From Gammaproteobacteria bacterium (lineage in GTDB: Bacteria > Pseudomonadota > Gammaproteobacteria > Pseudomonadales > Azotimanducaceae): 64,000 nucleotides of DNA. The DNA lies in assembly GCA_009846005.1 (NCBI GenBank), contig VXYL01000046.1, positions 1-64,000 of the forward strand. Direction: 5' to 3'. The notes under the pieces are model-generated. The model did no database searches. It was not told the DNA's origin and was given only the letters and a program-made list of their open reading frames with translations. The translations under genes were made by a program, and so were the position numbers. Positions 31,140 to 32,437 of the stretch are shown here, piece after piece. Numbering within the stretch: position 1 is the first letter of the stretch; the number at the start of each line of letters is the position of its first letter.

Positions 31140-31169
31140 TTGACATCAAGACCGGACCCCGCGCAGAAT
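31140..31169 (+). promoter_or_regulatory. Predicted sigma70 promoter of the aromatic leader and DAHP synthase
   Basis: A perfect -35 TTGACA (31140-31145) is followed after 18 bases by CAGAAT (31164-31169; four of six matches). Transcription would begin near 31176, only about 4 bases ahead of the leader-peptide ATG at 31180. Confidence 0.6.
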
Positions 31170-31179
31170 CCGCCGCCGA

Positions 31180-31269
31180 ATGAACGCTTCGCTTACCGAT
31201 ACGGGCCCGACGGGTTCGACCGTGACCACCGTCGCCGGCGGCGCGTGGTATTGGTTTTTCCATCGGTAG
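31180..31269 (+). CDS. Aromatic-rich leader peptide of the DAHP synthase attenuator
   Basis: An ATG opens a 29-codon frame that ends with the run Trp-Tyr-Trp-Phe-Phe-His-Arg before TAG 31267-31269. Five successive aromatic codons (TGG TAT TGG TTT TTC, 31246-31260) lie just upstream of a strong terminator and then the gene for the first aromatic-pathway enzyme. This is the layout of ribosome-mediated attenuation leaders such as trpL and pheL. No clear Shine-Dalgarno is seen; the predicted transcript begins only a few bases before the ATG. Stalling at these codons when Trp, Tyr or Phe is short would favour an antiterminator. Confidence 0.8.
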   Translation: MNASLTDTGPTGSTVTTVAGGAWYWFFHR

Positions 31270-31308
31270 GCGTGCTCCACACCGAGGGCGCCATCGTCGC
31301 CCTTCGCG

Positions 31309-31347
31309 AAAACCCCGATCGGCGACATGGCCATCGGGGTTTTGTTT
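31309..31347 (+). terminator. Intrinsic terminator/attenuator upstream of DAHP synthase
   Basis: AAAACCCCGAT (31309-31319) pairs perfectly with ATCGGGGTTTT (31333-31343); inside, GGC/GCC extends the stem, and the right arm runs into TTTTGTTT. It begins 39 bases after the leader stop and ends just before the ribosome site of the DAHP synthase gene. An alternative pairing of GGTTTT (31253-31258, in the aromatic codons) with AAAACC (31309-31314) would break the terminator and is a candidate antiterminator; ATCGG (31262-31266) with CCGAT (31315-31319) is another. Confidence 0.85.
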
Positions 31348-31360
31348 GAAGGGGACGAAA

Positions 31361-32437
31361 GTGACAATCGAGGCGGAAAATCTCAGGATCGCGGCGCAGC
31401 GTACGCTGCCCACACCCAAGGAGGTGAAGAGCAGGCATCCGGCGAACGACGCATTGCTCCGGGGCGTGGTGGAAGCCAGGCGGCGAATCAAGGACATCCT
31501 GGAGCGACGGGACCACCGCATGCTCGTCGTCGTGGGACCCTGCTCCATCCACGACCCCCGGGCGGCCCTCGACTACGCGGAGCGGCTGTCGAGACTGGCC
31601 GTGGAGACGCGCGACACGCTCTACATAGTCATGCGCGCCTACTTCGAAAAGCCCCGTACGACCACCGGCTGGAAGGGACTCATCAACGATCCATACCTCG
31701 ACGACACGGGTCACGTCGAGGATGGAATCTGTCTCGCCCGCAAGACGCTTGTCGAAATCGCGGCCCGAGGTATGCCCATTGCGACCGAAGCCCTGGATCC
31801 CATGACGCCCCAGTACCTGCAGGATCTGATCGCCTGGTCCGCCATCGGCGCCCGCACCGCGGAGTCGCAGCCGCACCGGGAGATGGCATCGGGATTGTCA
31901 TCGGTGGTTGGATTGAAGAACGCCACCGACGGTTCGGTGGACGTGGCGGTCAACGCGCTCAAAGCCGTCGGGAAGGCGCATCGGTTCCTGGGGATCGATG
32001 CCCTCGGTCGCGTCGCGTTGATTCAAACCCTCGGCAACCCCAACGCACACATCGTTCTGCGGGGCGGCGAGGGCGGACCCAACTACGATGTGCGCGCCAT
32101 CGAGCGATGCGAGGCGCGGTTGTTGGCGGGGAATCTGCCGCTCAACATCATGGTCGACTGTTCCCACGACAACTCCAACAAGGACCACGAGCGGCAACGC
32201 GTCGTTGTCGACGCCGTCGCGAGCCAGGTTGTCGATGGCAATCGCTCCATCATCGGGATCATGGTCGAGAGCAACATCGAGGCGGGCAACCAGCCGATCG
32301 GACAGGACATGGCCTACGGTGTCTCGATCACGGACGCCTGCGTCGGCTGGGACGACACCGAGGCAATGCTGCGCCACCTGGCGGCGACCCTGCACGAACC
32401 GCTAGTCGAACGCCTCGTGCCTGCAAAGGCGTCGTAG
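31361..32437 (+). CDS. aroF: 3-deoxy-7-phosphoheptulonate (DAHP) synthase, class I, AroF-like
   Basis: This 358-residue TIM-barrel enzyme condenses PEP and erythrose-4-phosphate, the first step to Trp, Tyr and Phe. It has VVVGPCSIHDPRAALDYA, MRAYFEKPRTTTGWKGLINDP, GARTAESQPHREMASGLS and MVDCSHDNSNKDHERQ (metal and substrate ligands). The segment ATEALDPMTPQYLQDLIAWSAIGART is closer to the Tyr-sensitive AroF than to AroG or AroH. GTG 31361 is chosen because GGGGA lies 5-10 bases upstream; TTG 31346 lies within the terminator tail. Expression appears to be controlled by the attenuator just upstream. Confidence 0.95.
   Translation: MTIEAENLRIAAQRTLPTPKEVKSRHPANDALLRGVVEARRRIKDILERRDHRMLVVVGPCSIHDPRAALDYAERLSRLAVETRDTLYIVMRAYFEKPRTTTGWKGLINDPYLDDTGHVEDGICLARKTLVEIAARGMPIATEALDPMTPQYLQDLIAWSAIGARTAESQPHREMASGLSSVVGLKNATDGSVDVAVNALKAVGKAHRFLGIDALGRVALIQTLGNPNAHIVLRGGEGGPNYDVRAIERCEARLLAGNLPLNIMVDCSHDNSNKDHERQRVVVDAVASQVVDGNRSIIGIMVESNIEAGNQPIGQDMAYGVSITDACVGWDDTEAMLRHLAATLHEPLVERLVPAKAS

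Follow-up and report, generated by a model that had tools for sequence, protein, structure and literature searches.

The 64-kb stretch of DNA analysed here (contig VXYL01000046.1, positions 1 to 64,000; hereafter the window) belongs to a gammaproteobacterial genome of 5 Mb in 106 contigs, whose family is labelled f1. It carries, on the forward strand like all features of the window described below, a short open reading frame (ORF) ending in aromatic codons, followed by an intrinsic terminator and by a gene for a DAHP synthase. The leader ORF (31180-31269, 29 codons plus TAG, MNASLTDTGPTGSTVTTVAGGAWYWFFHR) starts at ATG 31180, stops at TAG 31267-31269, and has the C-terminus Trp-Tyr-Trp-Phe-Phe-His-Arg (codons 31246-31266), in which the putative sensor codons Trp-Tyr-Trp-Phe-Phe occupy 31246-31260; its ATG and its aromatic end recur in L004 and L005, the two nearest relatives. 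The terminator (31309-31347) begins 39 nt after the stop codon (spacer 31270-31308) and consists of a perfect 11-bp stem between AAAACCCCGAT (31309-31319) and ATCGGGGTTTT (31333-31343), enclosing 13 nt, with a T-rich tail TTTTGTTT (31340-31347). A standard terminator scan returned no site at this locus, probably on account of its 3-8 nt loop limit compared to the 13 nt enclosed here, and a purpose-made scan did detect the stem. A first-pass annotation of this DNA had described the leader, its aromatic end, the 39-nt gap and the tailed stem in front of an AroF-like gene; read again directly from the sequence, all the coordinates were right.

The downstream gene encodes a class-I AroF/G/H DAHP synthase (TIGR00034, 465 bits for a cut-off of 173.2), which confirms the identity proposed at first. 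In the ORF list its start was a TTG at 31346, overlapping the end of the terminator tail. The real start is more likely GTG 31361, giving a gene at 31361-32437, because a Shine-Dalgarno-like AAGGGG (31349-31354), read from the sequence, precedes this GTG, and because the GTG is kept in both L004 and L005. The same genome contains a second DAHP synthase (contig C80), 48% identical to the first, the upstream region of which has no aromatic leader.

Conservation was then examined with a detector that accepts a locus when the 14 C-terminal residues of a short ORF include 4 or more aromatic ones and a T-tailed hairpin comes 18-80 nt behind it. The family loci came from the matches listed, and comprised 78 of the better-matching group, one of them (L069) too short to judge, and 20 of a group 46-52% identical. 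The detector accepted 51 of 69 loci of the first group. It accepted none of the family's 20 DAHP synthases of the second type, none of 49 DAHP synthase loci of the class that belong to other families, and none of 74 named genomes that are not family members. The latter set was derived from 80 named loci by removing four that appear to be family genomes (L123, L125, L132 and L138, apparently G080, G038, G084 and G026), as well as L122 and L184, two leader carriers whose membership in the family is not certain; were these two outside the family, the count would be 2 of 76. Not one of 345 dinucleotide-shuffled family upstream regions was accepted, compared to the 51 of 69 real ones, so that the leader/terminator pair is more than a chance association. 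With the threshold lowered to 3 aromatic residues and 8 further loci included, 60 of 77 loci and 27 of 34 genera were accepted; genus g19 is represented only by the locus that is too short. The detector is conservative, as four loci (L070, L072, L082 and L084) were scored as misses and yet have an aromatic leader and a terminator when inspected by eye.

No locus was accepted among those examined in genera g11, g14, g18, g22, g23 and g33, which suggests that the element was lost there or is differently arranged. In genus g14, a terminator and a stretch resembling the ladder precede the DAHP synthase gene at L075 and L091, with no clear aromatic run in the frame before them; these loci possibly correspond to a decayed or re-targeted sensor. 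In a g18 genome, a strong match (L278, G017:C40:19790-19879) to the RNA model presented below lies near a contig end, with the aromatic leader KPYAGYYFFMS and the gene cut off. The DAHP synthase locus examined from that genome (L079) is without the element and lies in apparent coding sequence.

Leaders were located at 54 loci (53 from f1, plus L184). Trp, Tyr and Phe are present together in the last 14 residues of 45 of them, the others having Tyr and Phe (5), Trp and Tyr (3) or Trp and Phe (1). Two or three residues separate the last aromatic residue from the stop in 45 of the 54. The first and last aromatic codons begin 21 and 9 nt before the stop in the window, for medians of 33 and 12 nt across the 54 loci. 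A pattern resembling W-x-G-[YF][YF]-x-F is common to many family leaders, in which a Gly frequently stands amid the aromatic residues.

We then asked which RNA structures the family shares between the leader stop and the terminator. The 180-nt leader region of the window folds with a z-score of -4.62, none of 200 shuffled sequences being as stable, and none of the 4227 Rfam models matched within the 64-kb window at the curators' threshold. Covariation was searched for after leaving out L083, L086 and L021, whose terminator or loop call is doubtful; L008 and L065, near-identical to L007 and L064, were additionally left out of the alignment. In this alignment of 49 loci the terminator helix is paired in 98.5% of cells. 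Four further strands, called A to D, were recognised. Strand A (31269-31277) begins in the stop codon and pairs with strand B (31284-31292) through 31269-31273 with 31288-31292 and 31275-31277 with 31284-31286. The A:B hairpin amounts to -13.2 kcal/mol in the window, and its covariation was detected by a permutation test (z -6.1, 0 of 20000), but not in one fixed register. Part of B (31284-31290) can alternatively pair with 31298-31304 in strand C (31296-31304), at -9.8 kcal/mol in the window (permutation z -5.2; alignment columns 46-52 with 57-63). Strand C in turn can pair through 31296-31301, extended by 31290-31294, with strand D (31321-31331), where GGCGAC (31321-31326) forms the core and 31327-31331 the extension. 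C:D amounts to -7.6 kcal/mol for the core and -15.8 kcal/mol when extended, and its covariation was not equalled in 500 shuffles (z -4.5). The permutation test gave no support to a pairing between strand A and the aromatic codons, which could have explained the frequent Gly.

Each alternating pairing of neighbouring strands, A:B, B:C and C:D, thus covaries, as in a his-type ladder, and B:C is mutually exclusive with both A:B and C:D. C:D opposes the terminator because D sits in the terminator loop and is often part of its short apical stem (GGC-N3..9-GYY, seen in 41 of 54 loops). The comparison of aroF upstream regions among relatives, which the first-pass annotation had proposed as a check, thus came out in its favour on both counts, with an aromatic run conserved in 51 of 69 loci and stems that covary. 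It also supports C:D, set by A:B, as the antiterminator, in a state predicted to exclude that of the terminator.

Taken together, these observations make it very probable that a ribosome-mediated transcription attenuator reading charged tRNA-Trp, tRNA-Tyr and tRNA-Phe controls this gene, one of the two such DAHP synthase genes of the genome. Transcription would start at the leader ATG or a few bases from it. When aromatic amino acids are ample, the ribosome would reach the stop codon and cover A, leaving B to pair with C; D would then stay in the terminator loop, and transcription would end near 31347. Should any of the three charged tRNAs become scarce, the ribosome would stall on the codons beginning 9-21 nt before the stop and leave A free to pair with B while C is still to be transcribed. 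The freed C would then pair with D before the right arm of the terminator is made, and the polymerase would read on into the gene. Translation of the leader, the positions taken by the ribosome, the direction of the response and a contribution of each of the three amino acids are elements that we infer.

The energies of the window hairpins, with -13.5 kcal/mol for the terminator, leave little difference between the two states once A is uncovered. A simple equilibrium calculation, made for transcripts that stop just behind D, supports the switch across loci: stalling raised C:D at 25 of 51 loci, lowered it at 8, and changed it by at most 0.1 at 18. It does not support the switch in the window itself, where C:D was 0.84 with the ribosome at the stop and 0.77 with the ribosome stalled. 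The order of synthesis would presumably have to decide between the two states in the window.

The sequences upstream bear on the initiation of the leader. In a promoter-like site, TTGACA-18-CAGAAT (31140-31169), a distance of 10 nt separates the -10 hexamer from the leader ATG; it was the only such site found in 2.2 kb, for 0.3 expected by shuffling, and L004 and L005 likewise have a TTGACA and a -10-like hexamer ahead of the leader. When the 110 in-frame ATGs of the leaders were considered, such a hexamer was found 7 nt upstream of 28 and 10 nt upstream of 13, for a background away from this cluster of 0-5 per position (mean below two), and at 39 of 54 loci one lies 5-9 nt upstream of some in-frame ATG. 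Because the -10-like box so often stands 7 nt before the ATG, the leaders are probably leaderless or nearly so, with a predicted transcript start at the ATG or within a few bases of it. The transcript of Sinorhizobium meliloti trpL, in the parts of the report consulted, similarly begins at the leader ATG, with the difference that this alphaproteobacterial leader reads Trp only and precedes trpE(G) (PMC7298713).

The family was also screened for the repressors that control DAHP synthase genes in E. coli. TrpR was found in none of 61 family genomes, the same search finding it in E. coli. NF008085, which we take to be the TyrR model, gave no match above its cut-off in the 61 genomes and sub-threshold matches in all of them; among the controls only E. 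coli passed the cut-off. The sub-threshold matches listed start in the middle of the model, which would be expected of generic sigma-54 activators. That TrpR was not found and TyrR never above threshold fits with an RNA mechanism having taken over. Together with the 45 of 54 leaders that contain all three aromatic residues, these results support the earlier proposal that DAHP synthase is attenuated by a leader sensing Trp, Tyr and Phe.

A covariance model was built solely from the stop-to-terminator part of the DAHP synthase loci. In the genome of the window it recovered the window site (57 bits) and one further strong site (41.2 bits), situated before a frame that, among the NCBIfam models, matches thrS best (355.8 bits over the 400 residues given, the full-length cut-off being 383.65). 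This second copy (L231, 1471-1660, minus strand; G000:C87:18119-18205) has a leader with a run of Thr codons, TTATTTTTTT, the leader at this site reading MNPIGQTTATTTTTTTCGGAA. Of 40 further model matches fetched, 16 precede a thrS-like frame, 13 of them within one set of 20. A Thr-run leader with a terminator was found at 12 of the 30 best-matching thrS loci of the family and at none of 29 thrS loci of the class, an imperfect control in that the class genes belong to a more remote type (38-43% identical), the family set having been drawn from genomes that possess the closer one. The same test made with each of the other 19 residues gave at most 2 of 30. The codon content of the leader therefore matches the gene that follows, aromatic before DAHP synthase and Thr before thrS. 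Two types of threonyl-tRNA synthetase coexist in the family, one 64-93% identical to that of the window genome, which is the type with the Thr leader, and the other about 37-43% identical, a range also seen in the class-level draw.

We favour, with some reserve, the view that in this family a single platform is used for at least two unlinked genes. It would consist of a sensor ORF, probably leaderless, with the A-B-C-D ladder and a CCCCG terminator behind it, and its sensor codons would be exchangeable, Trp/Tyr/Phe at DAHP synthase and Thr at thrS. At DAHP synthase it may act as an OR gate whose inputs are three charged tRNAs, replacing TrpR and TyrR. Elsewhere, thrS is controlled by an operator, as in E. 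coli, or by a T-box; a Thr-leader attenuator, if true, would be a control unlike either.

Four other explanations were weighed. The least improbable, though still unlikely, is that the main effect is translational, the same ladder deciding whether a terminator hairpin extended over the Shine-Dalgarno region (31347-31358) hides the ribosome site. Indeed, the minimum-energy fold pairs 31294-31306 with 31347-31358, the terminator helix continuing into this region, and the position that corresponds to TTG 31346 of the window in the alignment is within 5 nt of the terminator at 9 of 54 loci. At the other 45 this position is 14-116 nt beyond the terminator, which makes translational control at most an addition in some species. 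Somewhat less likely again is an arrest peptide, in which the nascent chain would respond to free aromatic amino acids, as TnaC does to tryptophan, with the same RNA ladder as output. One site might then read all three aromatics, and the Gly residues common amid the aromatic runs of relatives would fit. However, the order and spacing of the aromatic residues, judged by eye, vary from leader to leader (WYWFF, WFSGYWFGF, FFSWGYWFVT, YFWVRYFGR), Thr runs on the thrS platform suit tRNA sensing, and arrest on excess amino acid would be expected to reverse the sign of the response.

The attenuator could also be of the classical four-strand trp type, the first-pass annotation having proposed that GGTTTT within the aromatic codons pairs with AAAACC of the terminator left arm as an antiterminator. 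This complementarity does exist in the window, but it recurs at only 3 of 54 loci, its hairpin is worth -0.2 kcal/mol, and it is stronger than in codon-shuffled controls at only 24 of the 54; a ribosome on the aromatic codons would moreover block it. We rejected this pairing as rare, weak and lying under the codons where the ribosome would stall, and we hold a trp-type scheme to be very improbable. Finally, an ordinary terminator behind a chance ORF can be practically dismissed: low-score matches to the RNA model are indeed widespread (82 of 113 class genomes at E <= 0.01, that of the window excluded, best 39.6 bits), so that a terminator alone is not distinctive, but leaders conserved across genera, the acceptance of 51 of 69 real and 0 of 345 shuffled upstream regions, the Thr leaders at thrS and the covariation of C:D all stand against it.

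The tRNA-reading attenuator favoured here can be set beside several known systems. The his operon leader of enterobacteria is also a chain of alternating strands, one set of hairpins ending in a terminator and the other preventing it; here D, the antiterminating strand, occupies the loop and upper portion of the terminator hairpin, no support was obtained for a strand inside the codons, and the sensor is aromatic or Thr. One leader peptide reading several amino acids of a branched pathway is known from E. coli thrL (Thr, Ile) and ilvL (Ile, Val, Leu), where other amino acids and genes are concerned, compared to three aromatics at the common first step here. For DAHP synthase itself, the aroR attenuator of Corynebacterium glutamicum was reportedly described by Neshat et al. 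in 2014. The Phe-Tyr-Phe leader of this actinobacterial aroR-aroF is reported to attenuate transcription of the DAHP synthase gene (PMC11802643; PMC4046766) and to respond to Phe, not to Tyr (PMC11802643); compared by description only, the present element differs in reading Trp, Tyr and Phe, in its conserved A-B-C-D ladder and in belonging to a gammaproteobacterial family. The uORFC-13-1 motif of Acholeplasma aroF is reported to combine likewise an upstream ORF and a terminator before a DAHP synthase gene, with at least one Phe codon in a U run and 24 representatives from Acholeplasma and environmental sequences; an attenuation hypothesis for E. coli aroF is mentioned there as well (PMC8632094). 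RNA regulation in the 5′ untranslated region of Shewanella aroF and aroH, also gammaproteobacterial DAHP synthase genes, was predicted by machine learning, and a table of that paper cites an older E. coli study for an aroF "attenuator sensing tyr-tRNA"; the excerpts available describe neither an aromatic leader nor a ladder for these genes (PMC2659441).

The suggestion that attenuation would be a solution different from that of E. coli thus stands relative to repression in that species, but attenuation of DAHP synthase as such had already been published, judging from partial texts (PMC11802643, PMC4046766, PMC8632094). Our literature search, whose coverage of comparative genomics was incomplete, found no leader reading all three aromatics, no such ladder and no Thr leader at thrS. 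An attenuated DAHP synthase with an aromatic leader is known, and the three-aromatic leader, the ladder and the reuse at thrS appear, as far as that search went, to be new. The first aromatic step feeds three end products, and one RNA could pool three signals there, no TrpR and no above-threshold TyrR having been found; the thrS copies suggest that this RNA part is reusable with different sensor codons. The covarying ladder points directly to mutations suited to a test, and how codon order and spacing affect the sensing of several amino acids can be studied in natural variants (60 loci in 27 genera). A last observation concerns genome G084, which has two DAHP synthase copies (L064 on contig C15 and L065 on contig C22) with the same aromatic leader and terminator, the result of either a recent duplication or an assembly duplicate.
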